Part shown: one piece after another, positions 12,690 through 63,267 of the stretch | Layout: each line of letters opens with the position of its first letter | How positions within the stretch are numbered: the stretch's first letter is position 1 | Source: Tetracentron sinense | Lineage: Eukaryota > Streptophyta > Magnoliopsida > Trochodendrales > Trochodendraceae | NCBI GenBank assembly: GCA_015143295.1 | Contig: CM026554.1 | Span: forward strand, 28,843,531-28,907,530 | DNA: 64,000 nucleotides | Reading direction: 5' to 3' | Made by a program: the position numbers and the translations under genes | The notes under the pieces: model-generated | Told to the model about the DNA's origin: nothing | The model's input: only the letters and a program-made list of their open reading frames with translations | Databases searched by the model: none

Positions 12690-12691
12690 AT

Positions 12692-12703: not shown

Positions 12704-12756
12704 TAGTTCACTGATAAGGCTAATCCCTTAAGTGTGATCCTGTATTATCCGTGATC

Positions 12757-15700
12757 ATGAGTACTCTAAGAGAAGGAGGATCCGTCTCTCGTCCCCCACT
12801 TTTTGATGGAGAAATGAATGAGGAAGAAATGGCTCTTTTCGTTAAAAAATTTCGAAAATTTTTTAGAACGAAAAAGAGGTTTAATCCCAAACAGGGAGGA
12901 AAATCTTTTGATAAGTCAAAGTCTAAGCCCTGGGAAAACAAGAAAAATTCCAAAAGTGGCGACAAGAAATCCCAAGGTGTTCAATGTTATGAATGCCATG
13001 GCTTCGGACATATTTCACCTAACTGTCCTAACAAGAAGAAGAGTAAGGGCAAGGTGATGAATGCCTGTTGGGATGACAGTGATTCCGAGAATGAAGAATC
13101 GGACAGTTCCTCTTCAAGTGAAGATACTGGAAATCATACGGCTTTCACTGTTTCCCTATCTGGGATTCTTGAGACTACCTCTGCGGTTGATGAAAAGGAT
13201 AGAAGTGATGAAAGTATTCATACTGAGTCAAGTGATGACTTACAGAAGAGTCAAACTGACTCTGAAAGTGATGAAGATTTGAAAACAACTTATGATAAGT
13301 TGTATGCTGAAAGTTTAAAACTGACTAAAACAAAAATCTCTTTGAGCAAAAAACTCAAATTCATTCAAAATGAAAGAGATATCTGTAAACTAGTAGCAGA
13401 AGAGAAGAGTGCACTAGTTAGTCAGTTGGAAAATGAAAAAGAAGCATTTGTTATAAAAGTTCAATGTCTTTTGGAAGAGAATGTCTCATTGACTAATGTG
13501 GTCAGAAAATTAGAAGATGAAAGAGACACTTCCATGAAAGAAATTGAAGAGTTAAAAACTCTGCAAATGGAGCTGGAAACTTTTAAAGTCTCTCTTGTTG
13601 ATAAGGTGAAATTTCTTGAAAAAGAACACCAAATTACCCTTAAAGACAAGACTGACTTGATTCAGAAGGTCTATACTCTTGAAAAAGAAGTGAGAATGTT
13701 TGGTAACACCAGCTGCCTAGATGAATTAGTCAGAAAGTATGGATCAAATTCTAGTAGATCTGGGATAGGACATGTTGACACACCAACTGGTCCTTTAGCT
13801 GTTGGAACAATGGCTAGTGCAGTGTTTGAGCCAATACATTCTGAACCCAAAGAAAATTTACCTTCTACATCAAGTACTAAGGCTTATACAAATTTTGTAA
13901 AGCCTAGATATACAGCTCCTAGAGTGAATGCTTTAAGGAATCAAATTCCAGTTAGAAGAAATCTTCCTCCTCTACCAAGATTCATACCCACATGTCACTT
14001 TTGTGGTGTGAGAGGTCACATTCGACCTAATTGTAATGCATTTAGGAGAGCTCCCCGAAATGGTTCATGGAACCAAAATCTGAGTCAAGGGACTCTTCAA
14101 AGGCAGATTCAGGTTCTAGCTGAAAAGTCTAGAATGTTGAGCGATGATGTTAACAGAATTGCTCAAATCTCTAGGACAAGGACTGGTCAATTTATTCCAA
14201 ATGATTATTCAAGAGGAAATAATTTGACTTATCAAAAAACTAGAACTGAACAAAACAGAAAAAGGTCAAGGAGGACAAAAAAGAAAAAGGTCTCTACTAC
14301 ACAGATTAATGATCAAAGATCTAAACAAAGTTTAAAGACTGTGTATGTGAGAAAGGAAGACCTTAAGTGCTTTGTCATTCATACTGCCTTGAAAGCCCAA
14401 AACACAGAAATGTGGTACTTCGATAGTGGGTGTTCTCGGCATATGACAGGTAACAAGTCCTTATTTATTCAATTTGAGGACTGTCCTGATGGGACTGTTA
14501 CTTTTGGTGATGGAAGCAAGTCTTTAGTCAAAGGAAAGGGTATCATCAATTCACCAGGCATACCTAAATTGAAAGATGCCTTGTTTGTTGAAGGACTGAA
14601 AGCTAATTTAATTAGCATAAGTCAACTATGTGATGATAATCATGCTGTGCACTTTACCCAAAATAAATGCTTAGTCATTAATGGTAAAGGTAAGTGTGTT
14701 CTAGAAGGATTGAGAACCACTGACAATTGCTACGGCCTAACTCCCAGTACTATTCCCTCAAATGTCTGTTATAAGACTAGAATTGAGGAAGTTGATTTGT
14801 GGCACCGAAGACTAGGTCACATGAACTTTAAAGACCTATGTAAAATCTCTAAGCAAGAGCTTGTGAGAGGTGTTCCCAAACTAGGAAAGCCTTCTACTGC
14901 TGTGTGTGGGCCATGTCAAATTGGTAAACAAATTAGGACCCCACATAAGAAGACTTCAAGTATTGCTACTTCATATCCACTGGAATTAATTCATATGGAC
15001 CTTATGGGTCCTACAAGAACTGAAAGTCTAGGTGGAAAGCGATACATCCTAGTCATGGTTGATGATTTCTCTAGAATGTCTTGGGTGGCATTTATAAGAG
15101 AGAAATCCGATGCTTTTGACAATTTCAAAAGTATTTGCCTGAAAATTCAAAATGAGAAAAGATGCCCAATCACTCGAATTCGAAGTGATCATGGAAAGGA
15201 GTTTGAAAACTCTAAGTACAACGACTTTTGTGATGAGACTGGTATCAAACATGAATTTTCTGCACCTATTACACCTCAACAGAATGGTGTAGTAGAGAGG
15301 AAGAACAGGGTTCTCCAAGAGATGGCTAGAGTTATGCTTCATAGCAACAATCTAGCTTCTCATTTCTGGGCTGAGGCAGTTCACACTGCTTGCTATATAG
15401 TTAATAGAGTTTTTGTAAGACCTGGAACAAGGAAAACCCCATATGAGATGTGGAATAACAAGAAACCTAGTGTCAAGTACTTTCGAGAATTCGGAAGTAA
15501 ATGCTATATCCTTAAGGATAGAGAGCAACTGGGAAAATTTGAATCCCGGAGTGATGAAGGGATATTTCTTGGGTATTCCACCAACAGTAGAGCTTATCGA
15601 GTGTATAACTTGAGAACCTCTACAATTATGGAGTCCATAAATGTAATTGTGGATGACTCTGGTGTTGAAAATGTGCAATGTGAGGATGATGAAAGTGCTG

Positions 15701-17415
15701 AAAATGAAGATGTTGAAATTATTTCAACTTCACCTATTGATAAGCAAACATCTCCATTAAAACCTACACATCCTAGGGTCATGAGTCCTCACACCTCCAC
15801 TGATATTATTGGTGATGTTGAAAGTGGAGTGAGAACGAGGAAACAAATTGAAAATGAAGTTAGCTACATTTGCTATACTTCATCTTTTGAACCCAAGAAT
15901 GTAGCTGAAGCTCTTGCAGATGATAATTGGATAAATGCAATGCAAGAAGAGTTACTTCAGTTTACTAGGAATGATGTTTGGTATTTAGTACCTAGGCCTA
16001 ATAATACAAATGTGATAGGTACCAAATGGATTTTCAAGAACAAATCTGATGAAAAAGGTACTATCATAAGAAATAAGGCTAGGTTAGTTGCACAAGGATA
16101 TACCCAAATTGAAGGTATTGACTTCGATGAAACTTTTGCTCCTGTAGCCAGACTAGAATCAATAAGAATTCTTCTAGCTGTGGCTTGTAATATGAAATTC
16201 AAACTTTTTCAAATGGATGTTAAGAGTGCCTTTCTGAATGGCATTCTACATGAAGAAGTCTATGTGGAACAACCAAAAGGGTTTGAAGATCCACATCACC
16301 TTGATCAAGTTTATCGACTAAAAAGGGCCCTCTATGGTTTAAAACAAGCTCCAAGAGCTTGGTATGAGAGGCTGACTACTTATCTCTTGGAAAACGGATT
16401 TTCGAGAGGGGGAGTAGACAGAACCCTTTTCATAAAGAAAGTGAAAGGTGATATTGTCATCGCCCAGATATATGTTGATGACATAGTATTTGGTTCCACA
16501 TTAGACTTACATGCTCATTCATTTGCTGAACAAATGAAAAATGAATTTGAAATGAGCATGGTTGGTGAGCTAAGTTTCTTCCTTGGTCTTCAGATCAAGC
16601 AATTGGATTCTGGGATCTCAGTATCTCAAATCAAATATGCAAAAAATTTAGTGAAGAAATTTGGAATGAGTTTTGCTAAGCATGCTAGGACTCCTATGAG
16701 TACTACTATAAAGCTTAGTAAAGATATTTCAGGGAAGGATGTCGATAAGACTAATTATAGAAGCATGATTGGTAGTTTGCTCTACCTAACTGCTACTAGA
16801 CCCGACATAGCCTTTAGTGTTGGAGCATGTGCCCGTTATCAAGCAAATCCCAAAGAGTCTCACTTAGTTGCTGTCAAGCGTATCATTCGCTATGTGAGTG
16901 GAACTTTGTCCTTAGGCCTCTGGTATTCTTTCGATACAAATGTCATTGTTGTGGGGTATTCTGATGCTGATTGGGCTGGAAATACTGATGATAGGAAGAG
17001 CACCTCCGGCGGGTGTTTCTATATTGGAAACTGCTTAGTTGCTTGGCTTAGCAAAAAGCAGAATTCCATTTCCTTGTCTACAGCCGAGGCTGAGTATATT
17101 GCAGCTGGTAGTTGTTGCACCCAACTTCTGTGGATGAAACAGATGTTGAAGGATTATGGAATTGATCAAAGCACTATGATTGTGTATTGTGATAACACAA
17201 GTGCAATCAATATCTCCAAAAATCCTGTGCAACACTCTCGTACAAAGCATATAGACATTAGGCATCACTTCATTCGTGATCTTGTTGAGCAAAAAGTTGT
17301 GTCTATTGAGTATGTCCAAACAGAAAATCAATATGCGGATATTCTCACAAAACCTTTAGATTCCCTTAGGTTTGAACTCCTTAGGAAATCCATCGGTTTG
17401 TGTGGAGTTGAGTAA
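12757..17415 (+). CDS. Gag-Pol polyprotein of young SIRE element, capsid region deleted
   Basis: This open frame of about 1552 residues starts at the ATG at 12757 (the GTG at 12751 is in frame but unlikely). The N-terminus reads normally to PPLFDG, then jumps directly to an acidic/basic linker, so the copia gag capsid domain expected there is absent while the frame is kept. Next come a CCHC zinc knuckle ([14 protein letters not shown], about residue 76), a coiled coil (about 185-320), a second CCHC knuckle ([14 protein letters not shown], about 411), protease with DSG (about 555), integrase with its HHCC finger (about 682-725) and DDE core, reverse transcriptase with YVDD (about 1238), and RNase H (STAEAEY, about 1443). 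The protein would copy and integrate the element. Pol looks intact, so it could serve other copies; mobilising itself would need capsid supplied in trans. Confidence 0.93.
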
Positions 17416-18599: not shown

Positions 18600-18657
18600 A
18601 CCGATCGCTCGGTGCTAAAGACCGATCGATCGGTCTTTCGTGAACAGGGTTATAAAA
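18600..18657 (+). promoter_or_regulatory. Internal palindrome pair plus TATA box before ORF2
   Basis: ACCGATCGCTCGGT (18600-18613) and ACCGATCGATCGGT (18621-18634), spaced 21 bp, are the same two palindrome variants, in the same order, as the first two in this element's LTR. TATAAAA follows at 18651-18657, itself inside a near-palindrome GGGTTATAAAACCC. The ORF2 start lies about 200 bp downstream. It may be an internal promoter for ORF2. Confidence 0.6.
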
Positions 18658-18855
18658 CCCTCATTTCTATTTTTTTGTTCACTTGTTCTCCGATCTCCAG
18701 AGCGATCTCTCGGTTTCCTCTCCTCCAAATCTTTCCTACGAACATTCCATTCTACTCTAAAGGTTTCCCAAGCATCTAAAAGGTAAGAGTTGTGCATTTT
18801 CTTTGCTTTAGATTGATTTTCTCATCTAGGGCATCATTTCTTGCATTTTCTTCAA

Positions 18856-20145
18856 ATGGCTTTCGTTTTGTCGTTAATCCTTCTTGCCTATCTCATGTCT
18901 GGCATCCCCAAACGTCGGAGGTTGGTCCTCAACAACCAAGAGGATCCTCCTCAAGATGAGGAAAACCTAGAGCCCTTTACTTTCACTCCAATAGGGCATG
19001 GTATTTCCATTGGGGACAGGCCAATTCGTAGAATGATTGATTCTACAATTGAGAATCGTCAAAAATCTCTGGCTGATAAAACTCGGAAAAATAAAGGTAA
19101 AGCTTCATCTTCCCAGTCCAGTAAGTTATCCCAGTTTATCAGTCCTACTGCTGCTCAACTCTATAGTGAGTATTTTAGCAAGAAAGGTGTTATGGTTGAA
19201 AGGGACATACATATTTCTGATTTTGGTGATTATTATCTTCCTACTCTCATTTCAGATCGTCAATGGGAAGGTATACTTACCTTATCCGGTCCTGCTTCTG
19301 TCCAGTTAGTTAGAGAATTTTACTCTAATTTTTCTGAAATCAACCAGAAAAAATGGTCATTCAAATCTCGAGCATTAGAACAATCTGTTGTCATAAATGC
19401 TGATTTGGTTTCTAAATTCCTTGGGTGTCCTCGAGTTCCAAATGCATATTATCCTTATATTTATAAAACTGATGAGGATAAAGACTCCATGGAACATGTT
19501 GTTACCTTTCTAAGTGGTACTCCTACGTTTTGGGTTGGGTCTCTTATTGAAGTGACGAAACTCACTAAGGATGCTAGACTAGTAAACCTAGTTATGAGTG
19601 CAAATATCCATCCAAAGGTTCATACTGCGGACCTTAGGGAAGATAGAGCTAGATTTTTGTTTAGTCTTCTACGTGGGCGTGATATTGATCTTGCCGCTCA
19701 CATCATTGACTTGATGATCCAAGCCCATCAAACTAATACAGCAGTTGGAGCCCTACCATTTGGTTCACTCATCACTAAACTTCTTGGTTCTCAAGGGGTT
19801 ATCGCTCCTCCTGGTGTTCCTACTCGAGTTCCTAAGGGTCCAATCACCAAAAAGACCCTAGCTCAGAGTTTTTCACATGCCTCAGTTTGAGATACAGAGG
19901 AGGGAGCAGAAGTTGGTGCTGGGTCATCTCGTCCTCCTCCGACCACTATGGACGATCTTGGGAGGATGATGAGAGAGATGCAGATGGATCTCCGGACTCA
20001 TATTTCTTCATACGAGGAGTTTACTACAGAAGTTCGTGGTAGACTTGGATCTCTCGATGCAGCAGTGCTTGGAGCACAGAGAGATGTTCGAGATTTTCGA
20101 GCTTACTATGAGTCACAGCTCACTTCTGATGATGAGCAAGAGTGA
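18856..20145 (+). pseudogene. ORF2 (plant transposon protein domain) of young SIRE element, one premature stop
   Basis: One reading frame runs from the ATG at 18856 to 20145 with a single in-frame TGA at 19888-19890. A second candidate start at 18895 gives MSGIPKRRRL and avoids a short hydrophobic stretch (MAFVLSLILLAYL) that may be untranslated or a signal-like segment. The domain of the 'putative plant transposon protein' type covers about residues 90-330, with VREFYSNFSE near 19309 and a C-terminal ALPFGSLITKLLG block near 19750. After the TGA come a Pro-rich hinge and a helical tail (19948-20145). It is homologous in pattern to the broken ORF at 2421-4343. The role of this ORF in SIRE elements is not established. 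Confidence 0.75.
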
Positions 20146-20769: not shown

Positions 20770-22002
20770 TGTAAATCCCTAAATAGGTGTTGGCAAATTC
20801 CGTGATCATTAGATAGGTCAGTTGAGTCGAGTCGTCGAGTCATGTTCAACTTGTCAGAAAAGAAGAGAAGAGCTAAAGCTTAAAGAAGATAGAAGAAAGA
20901 GAAGAAAAAGGTTCTACTCCGGATCTAGACAGGTAATGGACTTAGAGACCCCTACCTAGGTTTGATTTGACTTAGATAACCCTAAAAATACCTAGGAGGA
21001 TAGATTTAAGCCTACCAAAGTTATTTGATCTTAGTTGAATCAAATAAAAATAAAATGAATTAATTTTGGCAAAAATTCTGTCTCAACCGATCGCTCGGTA
21101 TTGCGACCGATCGATCGGTGGCCTACCGAGTGATCGGTGGCTATCGACTGGACTAAATATTTGTATGGGGAAATTTTCCAGAGAGATGTTTTATGACCGA
21201 GCGATCGGTCATTAGAACCGATCGATCCGTTGTGAACCGAGCGATCGGTTGTGAGCACCGATCGATCGGTCCCCGTAAAAAGAATTTTTCTTTTTCTGGA
21301 TTCTTTTTTTAACCCTATATAAACAACTTTTGAGAGACCTAATTCGTGTCTTTGATAATTTTTGAAAGAGTAGAGGTCTGAGAAACTCTTCTAGGGTTTT
21401 TCTAATTGTTTTTATTAAATCTTTGTTGATCCCTCCTCTTTCTTAGATCCTAGAGAATGCAAGTATAGATTAAAATCTTTGATCTTGCATTGTGTGATCT
21501 CAGATCTGTATGAGATCCCTCTAGGGTTTGAAATTTACTAAATTGATTCACAACCCTACACCTTGTGTGTGTGTCCGGTGTTTGATCCGGAGCCTTCGTG
21601 GAAGGAGATCGATCGTGTGTGATCGTGGATTTGAAGTTGCTTGAAAAGATTTGGTCGGTGTGGAACCGAAGCTGCTAAGGCGGAGATCGAACCTGCTGGT
21701 TCGTGGAAATCAAGAGTAAGAGTCTATACCTAGGAACGTCGTTTCTGTTTTGGTAAGGTCTTATCTTGTACTTGATATCTTTTCATAGTGAAGTTTATTG
21801 CTGGACAAGGTCCCGTGGTTTTTTCCCGTTAGGGTTTTCCACGTAAAAATCTTCTGTGTTTGATTTGTGTGGATTGTCTGATTGAGTTAATCATTGATTT
21901 TTAAACATATTAATTGAAAAATTAAAATTGGTTAGAAATTATTAGATAGACCTATTCACCCCCCCTCTAGGTCTTAGAGATCATTGATCTGGATAAATTT
22001 CA
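20770..22002 (+). repeat. Right LTR of young SIRE element
   Basis: It begins TGTAAATCCC and ends ATAAATTTCA, followed by the target duplication ACCAA. Compared with the left LTR there is one changed base in the third palindrome (GAGCGATC to GAGTGATC), two further substitutions and one fewer T in a T-run. Confidence 0.95.
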
Positions 22003-22045
22003 ACCAAGAACAAGAAACGTGAATGATGAAACAAGTATGAATATC

Positions 22046-25312: not shown

Positions 25313-25519
25313 ACCGAGCGATCGATGGTTATGACCGATCGATCGGTTGCCTACTGAGCGATCGATGTTCTTGACCGAGCGATCGGTGTTCTTGACCGAG
25401 CGATCGGTCAAAAATATGCTCTCTGAAATTTTTTCTCATACAAAAAAGTTAACCAGTCGATAGCCTCTGATCGATCGGCTGTGGACCGATCGATCGCTAC
25501 AATAGACCAAGCGATCGAT
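25313..25519 (-). promoter_or_regulatory. Palindrome cluster ACCGATCGATCGGT in the minus-strand solo LTR
   Basis: Eight 14-bp near-palindromes occur at 25313, 25334, 25353, 25374, 25395, 25466, 25485 and 25506 (starts; spacings 21, 19, 21, 21, 71, 19, 21). The 71-bp step contains, on the minus strand, GGCTATCGACTGG and CAGAGAG at the same positions as in the young copia LTR's 71-bp step. It is the same palindrome family as in the copia LTR at 11772-11956. Confidence 0.7.
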
Positions 25520-47233: not shown

Positions 47234-47395
47234 TTCGATCGATCGGAGCTACCAACCCGATCGATCGGACAAGACCAATAGGGTCTAATAGATTGGCCCT
47301 AAGTCCCGATCGATCGGGGATCGTGCACCGAAATAAAATAAAAAACGCGATTTTTTGACTTTTTGGCTTCCCAAGGATTCCAAACTCTATAAATA
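47234..47395 (+). promoter_or_regulatory. CCGATCGATCGG palindrome cluster and TATA box
   Basis: Palindromes at 47234-47247, 47256-47269 and 47305-47318 (spacing 22 and 49 bp) share a CGATCGATCG core. TATAAATA follows at 47388-47395. The layout is the same as in the other LTR clusters. Confidence 0.65.
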
Positions 47396-49671: not shown

Positions 49672-51049
49672 TGTTGATGATAGTTATTGAAAAGTTTGAC
49701 TTGTGAAATTTTGAACTTAAGAACGTTGTTAATAATTCAATAAAATAATGACACGTGGCTCAATGGACATTCTGACATATTACATACTAAAATCCTCTTT
49801 TGAGATTTGATTAACAGAATTCCATGTTTATCTGATAATGATGATTTTAGTCATTAATGATCACTGATTTTCAGGCTTTTATGCTTTTAGTTCATGTAAA
49901 GGATTATGCTCCTTGATGACTTTTTTACCCCTACACCACTGATAAAAATTGAAATTGTTGCGCTTTTAATGCTATTGATGCAGATTCAGGCTCTAACGCC
50001 TTTGGATATTGATTCAGGCTCTAACGCCTTTGGATATTGATTTAAGCTTCAACGCCTTTCTGATGATGATGAGCTTGGTATGGATTAGTACCCCCCTCTA
50101 TGTACCTTTCTGATGACCTATACCAGAAAGAGAATTTGTTCTGTCAGGGGTGAACGGTACGGATTGGTACCCCCCGTGGGAATGAGTGTGGCTATTTCCC
50201 TTCATTACCTATTCCAGTGAAGCATGGATTACTTCCTGGGCTGACAATCAGGGAGAAAGCATTGGGGATGGATTTTTCCTCAGTTTCTCTTAAGGCTTGA
50301 CGGGATGGGTGTCTTCGTCCAACACCTCCGCTTTCCCTATTGGACTTGAGATGATTATTATTATTATTATTATGATTACTACTTAGAGGAGTGTTGTTGT
50401 CTGAACACTAATACATTACCTCAATAGGACAGTACACCATGAAAGCGTATGACCCGCTTTCACGATGTAGTTACCAACTGCTTTGGGGGAGGATGATGAG
50501 TTGTGGTTTGGAGGGCTTAGATAAAATTTGTTAAAAGATGGATATTATAAATACCGCTTTTAACCTTTGAAGAATATATCCGAAAGCTTTGGTCATAAAA
50601 GCTTAAAGGAGGTATGGTGAAAACGCCTTTATCTTGATGGAATCCAATATTTTCTCTCTAAAAGTCGGTTACAAAAATGGTTATGACAGCTGTACAAGTT
50701 AGTTATGATTTATGTTGATCACCTATAAATAGAGGTGACCCCCTCTTGTTTCAGGAAGAGATTTTTCCCAATTCTAATAAGATTTCCTGAAATCAGATTT
50801 CCAACTAGAATTTACAGAGAGAGAAAGTAAAGGATTCGTCAAGGAAAGACATTCTGTCACTACTGTTCTTCATTGTTCTTCCTTCTCTCCCTCTGAATCA
50901 TTTCTTTCTTTTTCCCCTTTCTTTCTTGATATTCCTGAATCATTTTCTCCCAAAATAACTCAATTTAGAACGGTGTGGATATCGGATTTAGGCTACATTG
51001 AGGTTACAGTAAACCCTATTTCTTCAAAAATCAAAATCACCCCTCTACA
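49672..51049 (+). repeat. Left LTR of the Tat element
   Basis: It begins TGTTGATGATAG and ends CCCCTCTACA. It holds two copies of a 28-bp unit (TTCAGGCTCTAACGCCTTTG, starts 49985 and 50013) plus a partial. The TATAAAT box (50724-50730) overlaps a perfect 6-bp stem TCACCT/AGGTGA (50719-50738). Confidence 0.92.
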
Positions 51050-51051
51050 TT

Positions 51052-51069
51052 TGGCGACTCTGCTGGGGA
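51052..51069 (+). other. Primer binding site of the Tat element
   Basis: TGGCGACTCTGCTGGGGA, two bases after the left LTR, is the primer site seen in many Tat-lineage elements. The priming tRNA is not assigned here. Confidence 0.8.
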
Positions 51070-51092
51070 TTCTGTAACAATTTTGAGAGAAA

Positions 51093-53495
51093 ATGGTGAC
51101 TAAAAAAAGTGATTCGTCTCAAGCACATGTTATTCAAGAAGAAAATAGGGAAGAATTTCATACTTCCAGAGTGGAAGTTCCTGATTTCTCTGCTGTTCTT
51201 GAGCCTTTTCTTGCTCAGTTTCAAGTGGCCCAAGTACAGATGCAAACTCAGATGCAGGCTATCCAAGGCCAAGTAGCAGCTCAATTGGCAGCAGCAGAAA
51301 AGCAGATGCTAGAGTTTTTCAAGAAAGCCCACCATGAAGATAATGTTCACAATTTGGAGAGGTCACAAGAGCATACACCTTCTCCATCTCGGCATGATAA
51401 AGAGAATGATATCCATGATAATACTCCTAAGAAAGATCCAGTTCTTTCTTCCCCACCCTGTAATCATCATGAACAAGAAGGAAGACATTCTTCATATATG
51501 CCGGCCGAAGATTTTTCTGAGATGTTCGAAAGGGAGCAAGCAAAACACTCCGGACTTTCAAACGCTTTCGATGCTAGACCGCCTTTTTCGACAAGGATCA
51601 TGAGAATGGAATATCCAGTAGGATATGTAACACCCCAGTTCACCCTTTACAACGGAAGAACTGGAAATGCTCGAGAACACGTGATGCATTTCACTGATGC
51701 TCTAAGCAGATATACCAACAATGAAGAGCTCCGCCTTCGCGAATTTGCTAAATCTCTGACTGATCGTGCCTTTACTTGGTATACGACTTTGGCCCCAAAT
51801 TCCATTCATTCTTGGGAAGAAATGGTCAATATCTTTTCCAAGAAATTCTTCTCTGTAGAAGATCGTGTTACTCTCAATACTTTGTCAAAAGAGCGACAAA
51901 GACCTAATAAAGATCTGACACAATATGTTTGCCGTTTTCGGTATTTGGTTCTAGACTGTCATGAACAAACAACTGAGGAGCAACTTGTACAAATATGTAT
52001 AGATGGAGTAGCAAAAGAATACAGAGCTTATTTGGAAGTAGCCACTATCCCCTCTTTTGACAAGCTTTATGATATCTCCCAAAGGCTCAATACAGTCATA
52101 TCTAGGGTAGCTCCACCAAGGTATGAAGACAGATATGGTAAGAGGGACAAGAGAAAGTCAGCAATGGCGGCAGAAAATTCTAGAAGGCGGCCATTCCAAA
52201 GAAGTACCTCTTATCAATCTGACAAAAGGCCAAAATATAATCCAGAAAACATTCCACCGCCTTTTCCCTGCAGCATGGCAGAAGTATTGCGTATTGTAGA
52301 AGTTTGGATTGCTGATGGCGTTTTGTACTTGCCATCACCATTCCGAAAGCCTACAGAAGAAGACAAGCAAAGTAACAAATACTGTGTGTATCACCAGACT
52401 GTACGCCATTCAACGAAGGATTGTTTTTCTCTAAGGCGGATTTTCAATGACAAAATAGTTGCTGGACATTTGAAAATCTCAACGACTCCTGAAGGATCTA
52501 TCCATCAGGATCCTTTGCCAAATCATAAAGGGAAAGAAGCGGTTGCTATGGTTTGTCATAATTCAAATCATATGGAGGAGAAAGAATTTGAAGAAGAAAT
52601 TGTCTCTAATGTTCCATCAGCAGTAGAAACTCTTTCACAGAGTTCAAAGTTTAAAAATTTCTTTGACCAAATGCATTTCTCAAAAGCGGCAAGAATAGCT
52701 GCAACAACGGATTTGACATCAGTTGCAGAAGCTCATTCAGAACATTGCTTTCTCGCCTATTCTGCCATAAGAAAGGCAATGCCAGAAATGCAAGATGTAA
52801 GTTTTACCGCCGATGATATGAAAGCTTCATCAACAGCTCATAACAAGCATTTATATGTTACAGCTTTAATAAACTCCATTAAAGCAAAAAGGGCACTGAT
52901 AGACCCTGATTCTTCCCTAAATCTTATTCCATTATCAACAGCAGTAGCAATGGGATTAGATCCTTCAAAGATTTCAAAGCAGCCTATAGAAATATTAGGA
53001 TTTGGAGGACAGTGTCAGAACACTATTGGTTATGCTACTATTAATCTTCAAGTGGGACCAATAAATTCGGCAATAAGAGTCCATGTCATTGAGGCCAATG
53101 TAAGCTATCATATTCTTCTCGGCTGCCCTTGGATTCACAAATTTCAGTTAATACCATCAACATTTCATCAATGTGTTAAGGGGGTATACAAAGGAAAAGT
53201 TATCAGAATACAAGCAACTGCTACGCCATTTGATAAAGCCGAAGCTCATATCTCAGAAGCATTGTTCTATGATGAGTTGACTGAGGAAGGTGAAACCGCT
53301 TTTGAAATGGCCAAAGGAGTTATGCTACCATCATCCATTGTTTCAACGCCATCAGAAAATTCAAAGGCGTCAAAAAGACCACGCAACGAAAGCGGGAAAA
53401 TAGAAGTTCAAAGAGGAAACTCTATCAAAGAATCAAGGGCTGGAGGCTATAAGAGGGTGATACAACCGGATGGAAAGGTTGTATACATCTTATGA
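51093..53495 (+). CDS. Gag-protease of the Tat element
   Basis: This open frame of 800 residues starts at the ATG at 51093. The N-terminus has a Gln/Ala-rich coiled coil (about residues 35-85). The retrotransposon gag domain covers about 170-330, with AREHVMHFTDALSRY and FAKSLTDRAFTWYTTL. A zinc-finger-like CVYHQTVRHSTKDC lies near 430. The aspartic protease follows (about 580-700): at the catalytic site it reads DPDSSLNLIP near 605, where the family usually has a small residue before SS, so activity is doubtful. LLGCPWIHKF near 675 is the downstream protease motif. The frame ends with a TGA at 53493, and the same frame reopens for RT, so the stop probably split an original gag-pol frame. Confidence 0.88.
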   Translation: MVTKKSDSSQAHVIQEENREEFHTSRVEVPDFSAVLEPFLAQFQVAQVQMQTQMQAIQGQVAAQLAAAEKQMLEFFKKAHHEDNVHNLERSQEHTPSPSRHDKENDIHDNTPKKDPVLSSPPCNHHEQEGRHSSYMPAEDFSEMFEREQAKHSGLSNAFDARPPFSTRIMRMEYPVGYVTPQFTLYNGRTGNAREHVMHFTDALSRYTNNEELRLREFAKSLTDRAFTWYTTLAPNSIHSWEEMVNIFSKKFFSVEDRVTLNTLSKERQRPNKDLTQYVCRFRYLVLDCHEQTTEEQLVQICIDGVAKEYRAYLEVATIPSFDKLYDISQRLNTVISRVAPPRYEDRYGKRDKRKSAMAAENSRRRPFQRSTSYQSDKRPKYNPENIPPPFPCSMAEVLRIVEVWIADGVLYLPSPFRKPTEEDKQSNKYCVYHQTVRHSTKDCFSLRRIFNDKIVAGHLKISTTPEGSIHQDPLPNHKGKEAVAMVCHNSNHMEEKEFEEEIVSNVPSAVETLSQSSKFKNFFDQMHFSKAARIAATTDLTSVAEAHSEHCFLAYSAIRKAMPEMQDVSFTADDMKASSTAHNKHLYVTALINSIKAKRALIDPDSSLNLIPLSTAVAMGLDPSKISKQPIEILGFGGQCQNTIGYATINLQVGPINSAIRVHVIEANVSYHILLGCPWIHKFQLIPSTFHQCVKGVYKGKVIRIQATATPFDKAEAHISEALFYDELTEEGETAFEMAKGVMLPSSIVSTPSENSKASKRPRNESGKIEVQRGNSIKESRAGGYKRVIQPDGKVVYIL

Positions 53496-53540
53496 CAATC
53501 AAAGGAAACTGATTCATCAAAAGAAAATCAGACTCCTACG

Positions 53541-56500
53541 ATGAATCAAATATTTCAAGCTGAAGAAACAAGTGAGATTGGGGAAGCACCAGACCAGATG
53601 CAGGATGGTGTAAAAGCGGTACAAGAAAGTCTTGAAGAAGTAAATCTTGCAGAAAATTTATCAGAAAAACGTCCAGTACTTATCAGTTCCAAGTTAGTCC
53701 CAGAAGAAAAAGAAGAAATGGTAAATTTGCTCAAAGAATACAGGGATATTTTTGCGTGGAATTATGAAGAAATGCCAAGGTTAAATCCTGTATTGGTCAC
53801 ACATAAATTGAATATTGGGCCAGGGTATGTACCAATAAAGCAATTGCCAAGGAAATTTAGACCAGATATTGAAGACCAAATCAAAATAGAAGTTGAAAAG
53901 CTCTTGAAAGTAGGCTTTATCAAGCCAATTCAACATCCTACTTGGCTAGCCAACATTGTACCAGTTAAGAAGAAGAATGGTCAAATCCGTTTCTGTGTTG
54001 ACTGAAGAGATTTAAACAAAGCATGCCCAAAAGATGAATTTCCTCTACCCAATATGGATCTATTAGTTGATGCAACAGCAGGTCATGATGCTTTTTCATT
54101 TATGGACGGTTACAGTGGGTACAACCAGATTAAGATGGCAGTAGAAGATGTAGAAAAAACAGCCTTCCGGACACCTTTTGGGAATTTTTATTATACAGTA
54201 ATGTCATTTGGGTTGAGAAATGCCGGAGCTACTTATCAAAGGGCCATGACAGCCATTTTTCACGACATGACATTGTTATCAAGTCCCAAAAGCGTCAGAA
54301 TCATGTTGATGATTTAAGAAGAGTTTTTCAATGATGCCGTCATTATCAGTTGAAGATGAATCCGTTAAAATGCGCTTTCAAAGTTTCAGCAGGTAAATTC
54401 TTGGGATTCATTGTAAACAGACATGGCATAGATATTGATCCAACAAAGGCTCAGGCAATTGCATCCATGATAGCTCCAAGCACAGTTAAAGAGTTAAAAA
54501 GCTTTCTAGGAAAGATATCCTATATAAGAAGATTCATTCCAGGACTGGCAGCTGTCATAGTACCTCTTATGCCAATCCTACGGAAGAATTGTAAGTTCAA
54601 ATGGGAATCAGTGCATGAAAAAGCTTTTAAGCAACTCCAACAGATGATGAGTTCAACAACAACCATGATGGCGCCAATTCCAAAAAAGCCTTTGATCTTG
54701 TATTTGGCTTCAACAGAAACCGCTATTGGAGCTCTTCTAGCTCAAGAAGATCTGTCTGGTTGTGAACAACCAATATACTATCTCAGTAGAATTCTCAAAG
54801 ATGCAGAATTAAGATATCCTCGGATTGAAAGGAGTTGTTTATCTCTGATCTATGCTTTACAAAAATTCTGCCATTATTTACTGTCTCATAAGATTTTTCT
54901 GATTACAAAATCTGATCCAATCAAATATCTCATGTCAAAACCAATTCTTTCAGGACGAGCAGCTAAATGGCTTCTTTCATTATCAGAGTTTGATATTACA
55001 TGTCTTCGCCTTCGTGCTATCAAAGGACAAGTAGTAGCAGATTTATTAGCAAATTTTCCAGGAAATGATGATCTGACATTAAAAGAAGAACTACCCGGAG
55101 AATTACCTAAAGCAATGACTATTGAAGCAACAGAGGAATGGTTCATGTATTTTGATGGATCTAAAACTACAAATTCAGCTGGGGCAGGTATTGTGTTAAA
55201 AGTTCCTGGGGGTGAGGTAATGTCCTTTTCTTTCAAACTGGATTTTCCTTGTTCTAACAATATAGCAGAATATGAAGCTCTTCTCATAGGTTTGTCAATT
55301 GCTAAAGAGTTAAAAGCCAAGAGAATAAATGTAATGGGGGATTCCAATTTGGTAATTAGCCAAATGGAAGGATCATTCAATGTAAAGGATGTTGGTCTAG
55401 CTCCATATAGAACAGCAATTCAGAAAATAATGACCAGTTTTGATATGGTAGAATTCAGGTATCAAGAGCGCACAGGAAACCGCTATGCTGACGCACTTGC
55501 TACTTTGGCATAAAACTAATATTTGAAGGAGAATCTTCTCAAGTGGTAGTCAAAAGGCGTACAATAGCTACGCCTCTAATGAGGGAATTATGTGAAAAAG
55601 AATCTAAAGAAGCAGATTAGAGAGAACCAATTTTGAAAGATATTTACCGCCTTCATGATTCAACAGTGGTCCCTACTACAACACTGAAATTCTTAAAAAT
55701 TTCTTGCAGATAAATGGGGATCTATATTTCAAAGGGCCTGAAGGCGTTCTGATGAGATGTGTTGGAGCAAGAGAAGCTAAAGAACAAATGATGCAAATCC
55801 ACACAAAAATATGTGGGTATAATCCCTCTGTTAGCCTGTATAGGAGGTTACAACGTTTTGGGGTATACTGGCCAACAATGGAGATAGATGCTGCTATGTT
55901 ACAGAAAGAATGTTCTGATTGTCAGATATTGCCAGATAGAGAAGAATGTCACTTTACAAATTCTTGGGAAGATTGGAAGAAACCATACAATGACTACTTC
56001 ATAGATGGGATAATGCCTACTGATCAAAATGAAGCTTTCAAGTTTAAAAAGAAAGTTGTTAAATTCTACTTTAACAAAGGAGAATTATTCAGGAAATGAT
56101 ATAATGGTATTGCTCTCAAATGTCTGTCTGGAAAGGAGGTTGAAATAGCATTACATGAAACTCATAGTGGGGATTGTGGTGTTCATCAAGGAAAAAGCAA
56201 GTTGTTTCAACACATTTTGGGATTGGGATATTATTGGCCTACAATGGAAGCAAATTCACATCTATATGTTCAAAGCTGTCATCAGTGTCAAATCAGAGGA
56301 AATGTCATTCATGCACCTGCACAGTCTCTACAGTATGTCTCTACACCCTGGCCCTTTCACACTTGGGGGCTAGATTTAGTTGGACCTGTTAATCCTCCTG
56401 CTGAAAGATATGTTTGGATACTTGTAGCTACTGAATATTTTACCAAGTAGGTAGATGCTATACCATTAAGAAAAGCTACAGGTATCATGGTGGCTAAATT

Positions 56501-57214
56501 TATCAAGGAAAACATTATTTGCCGCTTTGGAATACCAAAGGAGGTTGTCACAGATAATGGCACGCCTTTCATAAATTCTAATGTGAGAGAGTTATTGGAG
56601 AAATATGATATCAAACACAAGAAGTCAACCCCTTATTATCCTAAAGGGAATGGGCAAGTAAAGCTACTAACAAGACTATTCTGAAGATAATTGGAAAGAT
56701 GATAGAAGGTGCTCATAAAAAATGGTGTGAAAAGCTTCCAACAGCACTTTGGGCTTACAGAACTTCAGCAAGGACTGGAACATGTGTTACTCCTTTTTCT
56801 CTAGTGTACGGAACAGAAACTGTTGTACCTTTGGAAATTAAGATACCATCCACAAGAATTGAAGTATTTGATGGAGAAATGGCAAGCCTTCAAACTGCTA
56901 GGTTAGCTCAGTTGGAAGTTGTGGATGAAAAGCGTGAAGTTGTTGCTATGAAGACAAAAGCGTATCAAAGAAAAGTTGCTAAAGCGTATGACAAGGCTGT
57001 ACAACATAGAATCCTAAAAGAGGGTGACTTGGTCCTCCGAACAGCTATTCATATTAGGAATGGTACAAAAGCGGGGAAGTTTACTCCTAATTGGGAAAGG
57101 CCATTCTTGATAAGGCAAAGCTTTGATAGCGGCTACTGTCTTTTATCTACGCCATCTGGTGAAGTATTACATTATCCTATTAATGTGAAATGGTTAAAGA
57201 AGTATTATGCTTAA
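53541..57214 (+). pseudogene. Pol of the Tat element (RT, RNase H, second RNase H, integrase), broken
   Basis: RT begins near 53700 and reads KKKNGQIRFCVD up to an in-frame TGA at 54003, then PKDEFPLPNMDLLVDA onward. Near 54265-54290 the catalytic YVDD segment is deleted with a frame change, so RT is dead. The frame resumes by 54350 through the connection and first RNase H. A second RNase H of archaeal type (MYFDGSKTTNSAGAGIVL to YADALATLA, 55147-55513) identifies the Tat lineage. Integrase follows, with two finger-like blocks ending in CSDCQ (near 55915) and CHQCQ (near 56280), and DDE-core strings GLDLVGPV and VVTDNGTPF; Lys replaces the usual Glu after NGQV near 56655. Stops at 56097 and 56448 and a frameshift near 56665 interrupt it. 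Confidence 0.88.
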
Positions 57215-57285
57215 TAAAAGGAATGAACAAAAGATTTTCATATTCATTACTGTCAAAATTTACAAGGTCAATAAAAGAATAACTT

Positions 57286-60200
57286 TTACAAAATTTCTGA
57301 CGTAAAGCCTTTTTCATTCAAAGATACAAGTCTCTGAGCAGAAGCTCTTAGACGAGTATACTCTTCATGATCTGTTTTAATCTCTTCTTGTAAAGCTTTT
57401 AAGTTGTCTTGTGTTTCGGATATCTTCTTTTCTTTTTCTTCTAATATGGCTTGATGGTGGGCAATCTCTTGATGAATAGCATGAATGCTATTTTGTTCAT
57501 TCAGCACCGCCTTCTTGAGTTCTTCTGCTCTAATTATTTTGCTAGTATAGGAACTGTTCAGCTTAGCAAAATTTTTAGCCTGAAAAAACGTCATGGATAA
57601 ACTGTTTAAGAAATCCATCAGCCATTTTACATTAACATTAATGTCTTCCAGCTCCTTTAGCTCCTGGCTCCAATCTTCAAAGGTCTTTATCCTCAAAAGC
57701 GTAAGATGAGGCTTGATGTCTCTAACTTTTCTGATAATAGAGCAAACTGTCTCTATGCAGCCTGCTCTGATGATATGATTCTTCAAAGGACAAGAAGAGG
57801 TAATGTCTTGATAGCGCTTTACTATCTCTGACCAAAGAGGAAGAGAGCTTTCAGATACAGCATACCGCTTCAGAATTTCTTCAGGAGAACCTATTGATGG
57901 CGACTCAGTTGAGACAGAAGGAGTAGCAACCTCTTCACTTACGAAATTTCCGACGAAAGCAGACAAATCTAATGAAACAGTTTTCTGAGGGATTGCTGCA
58001 TGAAGATCAGAGCCAGTGATTAGTGTTTCTTCATCAGTAGTCATATTGATCTCCATACCAGAATCAATAACTGGGATCTCTTCATCAACGTTTCCTAGAG
58101 CTGTCTCTGTGGTAGTGGGAATCCTTTCATCAATAATATCCTCTCCGATAATTCCTTCCTCAACATTCTGTTCTGAAGAACCGACGATGACGCTTTCAGT
58201 AGAAGCAATCACTTGAGCATTAACGCTCTCAGTAGAAGGCACTGGTGTTTGGATATAATCAAAATGATTGAGACTAGTTGAGAGAGGAAGATTTTCAAGA
58301 GGTTGCTGTTCAGAGTTCTGAACCACAGGAGAGAAAAACGTTATTTCACTAGTTGAAGGAGGTTCCACCTCCATAGGTTGTTCTGAAGCCTCAACTCCGA
58401 CAACTTTTTCACTTGAAACATCTTCTATTTCAGCCTCAACAACATTTGATTCCTTGTCCTTGGGAGCGTCGTTAAAAAGAACCTCAACTATTGCAGAATC
58501 AGATATGATATTGTCTTCAACATCAACAGGCTCCAATATTTCAGCTTGAACGCCTTCAGAAAGTCCTTCAAAATAATACATATGTTGTTAGAACACTTTA
58601 TTAATGCATTATGAATGAGAAAATAAACAAATAAGTACATATATTGATAAAACGTTTTTTTTAAAGTAACTAACCTGCGCTTTCAGAACTAGCAATAGTA
58701 GCCTCAATCATAAGAGGTGATGAGGATTGCACAGTCCTTTGGAGAAGAAGTGATTTTGCCTTGATAGCTTGCGATCTCATTCTTTTCAGAGAAATTAACG
58801 CTTTAGCTATATCAATGGTCCTCGTAGGGTTTGCAATCTTCTGAATACCAGAGGCTTTAGCAGGTTGATCTTTCTGCTTGGAAAGCGGAGAAGAACTGGG
58901 CTCACTCTCAAGCCAGACATTTGCTAAGTTTTCAACTTGTACCCTTGCTTCCGCTGATGAAGGGAAGGGAATATCAGCAATATTATCTCTAGGAACACCA
59001 AGCCCCACTGGAGTTAATGGAGTTCCAGAGCTCCCTGCACCAATGTCTGAAGGCGGTGCTGTATTCTTTTCTTGGGCTAAAGAAGTTTCAGTCCTTCCTA
59101 ACTGATGTTGACTTTGTAAATTTTGTTTACGCATAATCAATGGTTCATTATCTTCACTATCAGAGGAAGGATCCTGTAACAATTTTTTTTAAAAAAAGAG
59201 TGTGAAATTGAAAAGCGTATGTATAAGGAATTATTTTTAAACTTTGAAAAGTATTGCTTATTGATTGACTCTCGCGCTTCTTAGAAGGAGGAGCCTTCTT
59301 CTTTATTGCAGTTTTCTTGATTCTAGGCGCTTTTGGAGTAGCCGCCTTTGGAACAGTAACATTTGCAGGCTGAGGAGGGGTAATGTTTTCCTCTCGAATC
59401 TCAGAAGGACCTCCGTCAGCAGATTTTGATTTTGGCTTTTTGGGTGGAGAAGCTACCGCTTTCCTCTTCTTGCCTGCACCAGGGGGCTCCTTCAAACATT
59501 TTTCCTTATCCATAGTCAAATTAATCGGTTGACTGATCATTGGCGGACTTTGAACAAAAGCTTTGAAAGTACCAACGCAAGCTTTCCAGAAAAGCTGATA
59601 GTTCTTCGTGCATCTGCCCATTCTGTGCTCCCCAGCCAAGTAGAAACCAACAACGAATGGCCTCAAGTTTGAAGACCAGCTCTCCATAATAAAAGCTTTC
59701 ATGGTTTTCTTCAAGGAGAAAGATTCAGCTACACCATCTGGGACACCTTGATCAAGCCCAAATTGCCTCAAACACCGATCAGGGTTGTAAGACTCGAGAC
59801 AGAAACTGTTTGTCTTGCCGCCATCCACACTGAAGAGACCTACTAGGTGACACTTAGATAAAATAGCAAAGCAATGGAGATCCTTCAATAAAATTTATGC
59901 CCGCTCTTCAGAATTTGTACCCAGAAAGGCCAAAGGAGTTTCAGAATGATAAGAAAATCTTTCAATTCCTTTCAAAGGCTCAATATAAGGCCTGAAGCAA
60001 AAACACTTTTCTTTGTCAATAAAATCAAAGATCAATGCATCCTTCTTCCTGGAAATGCTACTCCACCGCCATGCCCTGGGACTTGGGAAATCTTCAACGG
60101 CGGTATCATCAGCTTGTAATGGGGAAAATTGTCTAGCTGAAGGTGCATAGCCAGGAAAGCGTTCCCACAACCACATCTGGAGGAAAGCGGTGTGAACAAA

Positions 60201-61124
60201 TGATTCTATATTATAAGAACTTGCTGACCAAGCTTGACATTTGTGAATCTAATCTAAGTTCTTGTATAGAGTTCCTAAAAAATATATTCCCAAGGGAAAG
60301 CTTTGACCATCAGCAAGGCGGAAAGCCAGAGGAAATAATCTGTCCAAAACTTTATCTGTTGGAGCGCCTTCAAAAATGTATCTTGACAGCCACATGCAGA
60401 TGAACGCTGTCAGCTCCAAAGGAGACTTGTACTCTTTCCCATATTTATATTCTCTAACTCCTGTCTCCTTGTTCACAGGACCTTTCTCTCTGAAGAAGTA
60501 GCGTACCTAACCGTAAAAGTTTGGCCGCCTTGCATGAGATTCTGAAGCTCCCCAAACAGGATTCACTCTTGATTCCCAAACTAGAGCATGCAAAAGCCTT
60601 GCCGCTTTTATCTCTTCTTTGCTCAAAACAATGTCTTGTATATCACTGTTCCCAAATATGGGTAATCTCCATAACGCCATTACATCTTCCAAAGTAGGGG
60701 TAATTTCTCCCCACGAAGTAATAAAAGTGTGAGTTTGATTGTTCCATCTGGTAACCAGCTGTGATAAGCTATCCGTGTCTTTTCTAACTTCAAAATCCTT
60801 TGAAAGCTCTATGGCTCTAAATATCTCGGCAGCGTGAAGTTTAGGCCCATACTCTGGGTGAATAAGTATGTAGTCACACCAAGCTGTCCATTCCTTGGTA
60901 CAGCTGCTATGAGAACTGAAATTAACTTGTGAAAGCGGAAAATCTTTCCTTTCTATTCTAAACATGGTAGTAGCAAAAGGTGAAGGACAAAATCCTTTAG
61001 CTCCGTCAATATCGCCATAGGACAAAGCCCACCCATCAGGAGGAATAGCGGTATCCTAGGAGTGATGCATAGCTGAATCCCAAAATTCACTACTTAAAAT
61101 ATTTTTTTGAGAAGAGGAAGCCAT
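57286..61124 (-). pseudogene. Antisense plant mobile domain (PMD) gene inside the Tat element
   Basis: This minus-strand gene lies between integrase and the 3' LTR, convergent with pol (71 bp between stop codons). Its ATG is at 61122-61124 (MASSSQKNIL). One frame runs to about 59160 with four in-frame stops: TAG at 61056, 60507 and 60249, and TAA at 59895. It encodes a PMD of the aminotransferase-like type (FITSWGEITPTLEDVMALWR near 60660-60740, LTAFICMWLSRYIFEG near 60400, TAFLQMWLWERFPGY near 60170), then a basic Lys/Pro tail (59260-59520). A second exon starts at 59173 after TTGTTACAG; its donor partner is unclear. A third starts at 58565 after a clean 109-bp intron (GCAG|GTTAGT to TTTGAAG). 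The last exon (58565-57286) is acidic, then a Lys/Glu coiled coil (57300-57560). Total length was about 1200 residues. PMD proteins act in silencing or splicing in Arabidopsis (MAIN, MAIL1); a role in this element is unknown. Confidence 0.8.
58566..58674 (-). other. Intron of the antisense PMD gene
   Basis: The donor AG|GTTAGT starts at 58674 and the acceptor TTTTGAAG ends at 58566; the length is 109 bp and it is AT-rich. Joining the flanking exons keeps the reading frame exactly (phase 1). This supports a real spliced gene on the minus strand. Confidence 0.75.
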
Positions 61125-61858
61125 AGCTGAAAGCGTAAAAATTGCAGAAATAGAAAAATGGATTACAATGTGTTCTTATATATATATATATATATATATA
61201 AACATATACATATATAACAATAATAAATATACATGATAATAACAGATGGAAGAAGTAGATGGAATGATATAAAGTAGAAATGATCAAAACCACTCGCACA
61301 AAATAAAAAGATGAAAAAAAAAAAAAAAACAGCAAATATGAGCATAAGCAGAAGATAGAAACGGTAATAAAAAAAGAGAGGGTAAGAAAATAGAGACTCA
61401 CCAGAAGTTTAATGGATGTTCTGAAACTCCAAATATAAATTGAAAGCCTTGATCACCAAAAAAACTTAATCACAGAAGAAGAAGATGAACACTCAGAGTA
61501 TGTTTGCATGAAGAAGAAGATGAACAGTAGGTAATAAAAAGCTGATTCTTTGATTTTTATACTGTTTAAACATTTATGGTATGCGGATATCAAGAAGAAC
61601 GTTTTGGTTTGAAATTTGAAAAAATGTATAATCATAATGATACTGGCAGGCTGGCTGCGTAATCCTATTGGTTATAAATCTGATAAGTTATTTCTGTGCA
61701 GAATTTGAAAAGACAGCTTTTGATACTCAAGACGTCATATTTATGACAAGTATATTATTTAATGATTACAAATATTTTTTAAATAAAGAATGTTTTGTCT
61801 GCTCAAACGCCTTTGGTATCCTCAAACCCAAAAGCGTCCTCACAGACAGGGGGCTAAA
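61125..61858 (-). promoter_or_regulatory. 5' region of the antisense PMD gene and polypurine tract of the Tat element
   Basis: On the minus strand a TATAAAAA box lies at 61561-61554, about 430 bp before the ATG, followed by a TTCTTCTTC-rich leader (61460-61530), a poly-T/TC stretch and a (TA)n run (61170-61200). On the plus strand the same region ends in GACAGGGGGCTA (61845-61856), the polypurine tract next to the 3' LTR. That this is the antisense promoter is an inference. Confidence 0.5.
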
Positions 61859-63267
61859 TGTTGATGATAGTTATTGAAAAGTTTGACTTGTAAAATTTTG
61901 AACTTAAGAACGTTGTTCATAATCCAATAAAATAATGACACGTGGCTCAATGGACATTCTGACATATTACATACTAAAATCCTCTTTTGAGATTTGATTA
62001 ACAGAATTCCATGTTTATCTGATAATGATGATTTTAGTCACTAATGATCACTGATTTTCAGGCTTTTATGCTTTTAGTTCATGTAAAGGATTATGCTCCT
62101 TGATGACTTTCTTACCCCTACATCACTGATGAAAATTGAAACTATTGCGCTTTTAATGCTATTGATGTAGATTCAGGCTCTAACGCCTTTGGATATTGTT
62201 TCAGGCTCTAACGCCTTTGGATATTGATTCAGGCTCTAATGCCTTTGGATATTGATTCAAGCTTCAACGCCTTTCTGATGATGATGGGCTTGGTAAGGAT
62301 TAGTACCCCCCCTCTGTGTACCTTTCTGATGACCTATACCAGAAAGATGATTTGTTCTGTCAGGGGTGAACGGTACGGATTGGTACCCCCCTGTGGGAAT
62401 GAGTGTGACTGTTTCCCTTCATTACCTATTCCAGTGAAGCATGAATTACTTCCTGGGCTGACAATCAGGGAGAAAGCATTGAGGATAGATTTTTTCTCAG
62501 TTTCTCTTAAGGCCTGACGGGATGGGTGTCTTCGTCCAACACCTCCGCTTTCCCTATTAGAGTTGAGATGATTATTATTATTATTATTGTTATTATGATT
62601 ACTACTTAGAGGAGTGTTGCTGTCTGAACACTAATACATTACCTCAATAGGACAGTACACCATGAAAGCGTATGACCCGCTTTCACGATGTAGTTACCAA
62701 CTGCTTTGGGGGAGGATGATGAGTTTGGTTTTGGAGGGCTTAGATAAAATTTGTTAAAGAATGGATATTATAATACCGCTTTTAACCTTTGAAGAATATA
62801 TCCGAAAGCTTTGGTCATAAAGGCTTAAAGGAGGTATGGTGAAACGCCTTTATCTTGATGGAATCCAATATTTTCTCTCTAAAAGTCGGTTACAAAAATG
62901 GTATAGACAGCTGTACAAGTTAGTTATGATTTATGTTGATCACTATAAATAGAGGTGACCCACTCTTGTTTCAGGGAGAGATTTTTTCCCAATTCCAATA
63001 AGATTTCCTGAAATCAATTCCAACCAGAATTTACAAGAAAGAAAGTAAAGGATCGTCAAGGAAAGACATTCTGTCACTAACTGTTCTTCATTGTTCTTCC
63101 TTCTCTCCCTCTGAATCATTTCTTTCTTTTTCCCCTTTCTTTCTTGATATTCCTGAAGTCATTGTCTCCCAAAATACTCCAATTTAGAACGGTGTAGATA
63201 TCGGATTTAGGCTAGATTGAGGTTACAGTAAACCCTATTTCTTCAAAAATCAAATCACCCCTCTACA
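61859..63267 (+). repeat. Right LTR of the Tat element
   Basis: It begins TGTTGATGATAG and ends CCCCTCTACA. It has three copies of the 28-bp unit (starts 62172, 62200 and 62228) against two in the left LTR, which explains most of its extra 31 bp. The stem around the TATA box (near 62940-62960) has lost one C. Confidence 0.92.

Follow-up and report, generated by a model that had tools for sequence, protein, structure and literature searches.

A three-exon plant mobile domain gene antisense to a Tat retrotransposon of Tetracentron sinense, and a short word dispersed over the same element

Described systems and the locus under study

Plant mobile domain (PMD) genes and antisense genes have both been described in long terminal repeat (LTR) retrotransposons of the Ty3/Gypsy type, and the two come together in the element considered here, a Tat-clade element within a 64,000-nucleotide stretch of Tetracentron sinense DNA (contig CM026554.1, positions 28,843,531–28,907,530 of the forward strand; this whole stretch is referred to as the window). 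According to the portions of the literature searched, to which all our statements on published work are limited, PMD-A1 and PMD-A2 are Gypsy-encoded (Ikeda 2017, PMC5418596) and 57 % of Ogre elements carry extra open reading frames (ORFs) of the PMD type (Neumann 2019, PMC6317226). Like these, the window gene is a PMD gene outside gag-pol in a Tat-clade Gypsy element, but whereas they are predicted single open frames, it has two introns, ends in a PEARLI-4-like exon and is accompanied by a dispersed motif. Antisense genes between pol and the 3' LTR, the position that the window gene also occupies, are known from Retand, Grande and RIRE2 (Vicient 2025, PMC11963269; PMC7264820), and for gene23 of Grande a nuclear protein and a promoter of its own have been reported (PMC11963269, PMC7264820). 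These genes carry TRP28 (PF04195, by which Retand antisense genes are recognised; PMC11963269) and other domains; in the searched text of the same two papers no PMD is named, the word 'intron' does not occur and the role of Tat antisense genes is left without an answer. An earlier note, made from this DNA alone, had presented antisense genes in Tat elements and mobile-element-linked PMDs as known, and both are indeed found in published work. The dispersed motif, a second family that has intron 1 in common and the PEARLI-4-like domain go beyond what that note had noticed.

A second comparison is offered by VANC proteins, which bind short motifs spread over their own VANDAL elements (Hosaka 2017, PMC5735166), sister groups having different motifs (PMC5735166; PMC10398659). 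The window element similarly combines an element-encoded protein with a short, family-specific motif over the element. It is, however, an LTR Gypsy element rather than a VANDAL MULE and its PMD protein is unrelated to VANC, making it an analogue and not a member of that system; moreover, VANC binding was demonstrated by experiment, whilst binding by the PMD is a proposal. Among host genes, those dependent on MAIN/MAIL1 share a promoter motif, the DOWN motif (Nicolau 2020, PMC7156037), and a further study, judged by its title alone, concerns PMD protein–DNA motif modules counteracting Polycomb silencing (Pelissier 2025). Both resemble the present case in tying PMD proteins to a DNA motif and to silencing; MAIN and MAIL1 are host genes, unlike the element-borne PMD. 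For PMDs that MULEs have captured, anti-silencing has been put forward in print as a speculation. Both PMDs borne by Gypsy elements and antisense genes in Tat elements are already published, and what is new is the dispersed word CGC(C)TTT. Our literature search returned neither an antisense Tat gene reported to have introns nor a dispersed motif of this kind, which is weak evidence of absence as the main extra-ORF paper (PubMed 22544262) fell outside it.

Structure, conservation and selection of the antisense gene

The three-exon gene occupies positions 61124–57286 on the minus strand, antisense to gag-pol and with the integrase and the 3' LTR on either side (coordinates of all parts are given in Table 1). 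With its stops read as X, exon 1 matches Pfam PF10536 over positions 2–346 of the 347 in the profile (E = 1.1e-47; 163.3 bits against a cut-off of 34.9), which places the product in the PMD family and bears out the minus-strand PMD that the earlier note had read in this interval. The basic tail it described follows the PMD in the same exon, and its C-terminal coiled coil corresponds to a coiled-coil-like stretch in exon 3 that partly overlaps a PEARLI-4 match (PF05278, residues 241–402); the same domain was found in copy L022 (E = 1.4e-8), both matches lying above the Pfam cut-off. In the window copy exon 3 stays open as far as position 57286. No TRP28 (PF04195) was found in the six antisense pieces scanned. 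The 109-bp intron proposed by the note (58674–58566) runs from GT to AG, and the further acceptor that it placed at 59173 ends an 88-bp intron (59261–59174). Mean GC content is 0.208 and 0.235 in the two introns vs 0.423 and 0.456 in exons 1 and 2. Four in-frame stops, the number originally counted, interrupt exon 1 of the window copy at codons 23, 206, 292 and 410, with no frameshift in the frame. A protein search with the first PMD piece gave no match, and nor did viral-contig scans and a PDB sequence search, whilst exon 1 with X at its stops matched three plant proteins.

A TATA box 5' of the ATG was considered as a shared promoter and rejected, being present in the window copy but not in most copies. 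Additionally, most copies (window positions 61125–61190 and the same place in L009–L047) contain a T-run ending in AG, followed by CTTTCAG directly before the ATG. Both resemble the acceptors of 5' untranslated region introns, and CTTTCAG overlaps the dispersed motif.

A PMD search of the 1.16 Gb genome listed 119 matches (scores were computed for the best 117 of 3520 candidates, a sample that leans to good copies), from which 40 loci were fetched. The gene is common to 39 of them, exon 1 being 85–90 % identical over its full length; L048, which belongs to another family, was left out of the family-1 counts. The integrase end lies antisense to the PMD gene in 36 of the 39 copies and was not found in the examined stretch of L030, L035 and L046. 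Both introns are present in every copy: donor 1 is GT in 39, acceptor 1 AG in 38, donor 2 GT in 39 and acceptor 2 AG in 39. Exon 1 is open in 33 copies, exon 2 in 31 and exon 3 in 28, all splice sites are intact in 38 and everything is intact in 21. From the integrase side, the best 150 of 13,477 candidates were compared with the 105 Tat-type rows among the 119 PMD matches; at least 76 of these 150 have a listed PMD downstream on the opposite strand, at a median gap of 3077 bases (5–95 %: 3035–3181), and for one of the 150 a PMD is listed within 9 kb on the strand of the integrase itself. Other Tat copies thus carry the gene, and the possibility that it is a one-off captured fragment, which the earlier note had raised, is ruled out by the 39 copies sharing it. 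On the general biology of retrotransposons, the introns of a gene lying antisense to the genomic RNA would be in reverse orientation during reverse transcription and hence stay unspliced, and the retention of both introns in all 39 copies fits this expectation. It also follows from introns in antisense Tat genes that single-frame ORF scans miss parts of such genes.

Median pairwise dN/dS was 0.075 for exon 1 (38 sequences, 703 pairs), 0.193 for exon 2 (33 sequences) and 0.138 for the end of exon 3 (31 sequences); a codon model gave an omega of 0.109 for exon 1, and the integrase end stood at 0.134 (33 copies). The frameshifted copies L024 and L046 were left out of the dN/dS alignments, as well as of the CpG alignments below. 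In shifted frames of exon 1 dN/dS was 1.55 and 2.27; the choice of copies by profile score may have brought dN/dS down to some degree, yet it would not lift shifted frames above 1. On the opposite strand each frame of exon 1 holds a mean of 30–38 stops, and dN/dS was 1.60, 0.15 and 2.63 (15 of the 38 sequences), the low value probably belonging to the frame whose third positions coincide with those of the gene. The introns show 0.16 and 0.13 mismatches per site, with gap fractions of 0.14 and 0.06, vs 0.066 at the end of exon 1 and 0.059 in exon 2, where the gap fraction is 0.01; the start of exon 3 diverges like the introns (0.17 mismatches per site). Purifying selection across copies, which the earlier note had named as a test of the gene, is accordingly seen in exon 1 and also in exons 2 and 3. 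Such strong selection on a conserved, intron-bearing gene implies that the protein matters to the element. It might instead be the antisense transcript that matters, through double-stranded RNA control of the element, which has been proposed as possible for such elements (PMC7264820); this is highly improbable given that the dN/dS of exon 1 is far below 1 in the frame of the gene but exceeds 1 in the two other frames, and that its length changes come in threes in 37 of the 39 copies. The gene, its introns and the selection on it we regard as close to certain.

A second family is represented by L048 and L049, which are 85–87 % alike and encode a PMD ∼34–35 % identical to that of the window. The L048 gene is antisense to an integrase frame, and at both loci exon 1 ends after a lysine-rich tail at GT, the protein resuming with an acidic, serine-rich stretch (the intron-1 acceptor of L049 was read by eye). 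With its place corresponding to that in family 1, intron 1 appears to predate the divergence of the two families; no second intron was seen in L048 or L049. The pair has a dN/dS of 0.316 with three codons at stops, and both loci are therefore decayed. The PMD part of a predicted protein, P0002, matches L048 (contig C14), and C-terminal matches to exon 3 were obtained for P0002 (E = 2e-4) and for a Vaccinium protein, P0004 (E = 0.03); on these matches the layout of the window gene is likely shared by P0002 and only suggested for P0004. In gene model P0002 the second intron runs across a stop of L048, and the corresponding stretch of L049 reads, by eye, as coding; this intron was dismissed as an artefact of the model. 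This model (HHK36_020077; L048 1043–4094) also appears to fuse a FAR1 domain to the element's PMD gene.

With the other PMD loci of the genome the element PMD shares ∼24–28 % identity. In a phylogenetic tree the Tat PMDs, together with the Vaccinium protein and one from Sesbania, split from five other PMD loci at 94/94, on long branches; the best tree does not unite the two Tat families in a single clade but places the Sesbania protein among them. Of the phylogeny with MAIN/MAIL genes that the note had suggested, this tree, built without named MAIN/MAIL or PMD-A/B/C references and with 'MAIL-like' and 'host' as labels of our own, covers the separation from the other PMD loci of this genome. 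The element protein might act in trans on host PMD partners, as a MAIN/MAIL-type decoy or mimic (e.g. towards a PP7-type phosphatase), with the motif being read otherwise. Host PMD proteins do function with PP7L in transposable element silencing (PMC5418596, PMC7156037), and the strong selection on the gene would be accommodated; nevertheless, the low identity to the genome's other PMD loci, and the motif that would be left unexplained, make a decoy unlikely. A further type of PMD gene, of which at least five almost identical loci were seen, each on a contig different from the others (L004–L008), is perhaps mobile itself.

A dispersed word and its possible readers

When all hexamers of the window element were ranked, CGCTTT came first and CGCCTT second. 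The combined word CGC(C)TTT occurs 52 times against 4.8 ± 2.2 expected, so that a short motif is enriched over the element as in VANC-type systems. By part, the counts are 9 vs 0.4 in the 5' LTR, 7 vs 1.1 in gag-pro, 10 vs 0.9 from reverse transcriptase (RT) to integrase, 14 vs 1.8 in the PMD gene, 3 vs 0.2 in the gap that follows and 9 vs 0.3 in the 3' LTR, whilst the other 50.4 kb of the window hold 11 vs 15.1. The excess extends to the 39 family-1 copies (822 vs 118) and to the second family (24 vs 2.8 in L048; 18 vs 2.2 in L049), and is absent from eight other PMD loci (9 vs 9.4).

The word could be a functionless by-product of composition, codon use or mutation context, and to this extent the data agree: order-2 and order-3 models expect 8.1 and 13.0 of the 52 sites, and some frames show no excess over codon shuffles. 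Even so, the count is still 4-fold over order 3, it is raised in six of six parts, in introns-plus-flanks as in exons, and its absence from other examined sequence of the same genome disfavours a genome-wide mutation context; a by-product is thus quite improbable. Outside tandem arrays 46 sites were seen vs 4.4. Synonymous codon shuffles reached the observed count in none of 500 trials each for gag-pro, exon 1 and the L048 integrase, in 4/500 for exon 2 and 10/500 for exon 3, and in 0–8 of 200 for exon 1 of six other copies. None of the explanations tested, by dinucleotide composition, order-2/3 models, codon use or tandem arrays, accounted for the excess, some frames excepted. Furthermore, amongst family-1 copies differing by at least 5 %, CpGs within the motif were kept at 0.87–0.91, those in words one letter off at 0.68–0.76 and others at 0.61–0.66. 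The better retention holds in coding, noncoding and integrase parts, with a site-level rank test giving p = 8e-6 over sites and copies that are not independent. The motif is very probably a selected feature of family 1.

The sites are densest in the LTRs, and any element protein co-varies with the motif in both families. Both points would suit a site bound by Gag, by integrase or by a host factor of transcription or chromatin, for example in packaging, integration or transcription, and unrelated to the PMD. An RNA packaging signal or plain promoter element is disfavoured by the spread over the whole element and by the even strands of CGCTTT (19 to 18), and a host factor would not account for another word in TRP28 loci; we consider such binding rather unlikely, if less so than a decoy.

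The TRP28 loci came from a PF04195 search of the genome that listed 23 matches (150 of 1515 candidates scored). Six were cut out, which are related to one another, and so not independent, and which were compared as TRP28 loci irrespective of any opposite-strand pol. The top hexamer was CGTTGT/ACAACG in five of the six; over all six CGTTGT occurs 72 times vs 5.9 expected and CGC(C)TTT 9 times vs 8.9, and outside tandem arrays five of the loci hold 48 CGTTGT vs 4.8. At one locus (L055, 2758–3150), tandem arrays rich in CGTTGT stand beside the TRP28 gene, much as arrays of motifs have been reported in VANDAL elements.

The explanation that we favour, and hold to be possible though somewhat short of probable, is self-recognition by the PMD protein and CGC(C)TTT that protects the element from silencing; that an element-borne PMD could act against host silencing had also been suggested in the earlier note. 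We infer that the antisense gene would be transcribed and spliced to yield a PMD protein that bears a basic tail and has a PEARLI-4-like/coiled-coil terminus, that this protein would enter the nucleus, that it, rather than Gag, integrase or a host factor, would bind or be guided to the CGC(C)TTT words across the element's own DNA, and that it would keep the element's chromatin open against host silencing. Several observations weigh against this proposal. Motif and PMD occur together in two related families only, in which other element proteins co-vary as well; within the window element CGCCTTT favours one strand (13 to 2); and codon shuffles readily reach the count in the RNase H frame (256/500) and in L048 exon 1 (125/500). 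In family 2 motif CpGs are kept no better than others (16/22 vs 65/100; 13/19 vs 68/101), VANC motifs are confined to noncoding DNA and tandem repeats whereas those described here are also in coding regions, and the AlphaFold2 model of exon 1, built with 13 sequences, had a pLDDT of 36.5, too poor to judge DNA binding. Finally, CGTTGT is raised ∼3-fold in family 1 too (99 vs 33), and another clustered CpG word, CGATCG, is peculiar to a copia element of the window, mostly in its LTRs; such words are therefore not confined to PMD elements.

Extended to Tat elements generally, the proposal would be one of lineage-specific self-recognition, in which an antisense accessory gene, sometimes intron-bearing, is paired with a matching CpG-holding word (PMD with CGC(C)TTT, TRP28 with CGTTGT) so that the element would mark its own DNA and escape silencing, host PMD–motif modules being of shared origin; this wider form we think more doubtful. 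The dispersed motif makes a role of the protein directly testable, as binding to CGC(C)TTT. If the PMD does bind it, sequence-specific anti-silencing would extend from DNA transposons to LTR retrotransposons, with a bearing on the origin of plant PMD silencing proteins.

The host element and other features of the window

Positions 49672–63267 form one LTR element of 13.6 kb with gag-pol on the plus strand, split in this copy into several frame pieces. A domain scan found RT_RNaseH and then RVT_3 at 54335–55513, with an integrase zinc finger downstream. A second RNase H between the first and the integrase is the mark of the Tat Ogre/Retand type (PMC6317226), and the element is consequently assigned to the Ty3/Gypsy Tat clade, Ogre/Retand type, in keeping with the Tat assignment of the earlier note; the PMD and the putative primer binding site only suggest the Ogre lineage. 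The LTRs differ by a Kimura two-parameter distance of 0.036 which, at plant substitution rates, very roughly corresponds to an insertion age of ∼1–3 million years. No exact 5-bp target-site repeat was found at the element ends.

Table 1. Parts of the Tat element and its antisense gene (positions in the window)
Feature	Position	Strand	Basis or remark
5' LTR	49672..51049	+	1324/1421 aligned columns identical to 3' LTR
CGC(C)TTT, 52 sites, first to last	49961..62851	both	Hexamer ranking and counts
Putative primer binding site region, directly 3' of 5' LTR	51050..51069	+	Sequence
gag-protease frame, 802 aa	51087..53495	+	PF03732, E = 7.5e-14; weak aspartyl protease match
Broken pol (RT, RNase H, second RNase H, integrase; several frame pieces)	53496..57214	+	Domain matches
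Exon 3, PEARLI-4-like, coiled-coil-like C-terminus	57286..58565	-	PF05278, E = 2.3e-8
Intron 2, 109 bp, GT..AG	58566..58674	-	Splice sites common to copies
Exon 2, acidic/serine-rich start	58675..59173	-	Frame and splice-site comparison
Intron 1, 88 bp	59174..59261	-	Window copy without GT donor; closed by acceptor on the 59173 side
Exon 1, PMD and basic tail	59262..61124	-	Four in-frame stops in window copy
ATG-to-3' LTR stretch; promoter expected here or in the LTR	61125..61858	-	Sequence reading
3' LTR	61859..63267	+	LTR comparison and end reading

An integrase copy 99 % identical to that of the window element lies ∼101 kb before it (G000:C4:28798203-28798550), with no PMD beside it among the matches listed. 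Elsewhere in the window, clusters of the palindrome CCGATCGATCGG/CGATCG were seen at 11774–11949, 18602–18627, 21088–21263, 25319–25512 and 47236–47311. Two of these lie inside direct repeats (11456–12690 and 20770–22003, 99.7 % identical) that flank a copia-type gag-pol frame. Following this frame (12724–17415) is a 357-aa sense frame at 18817–19890, an extra ORF without an assigned kind.

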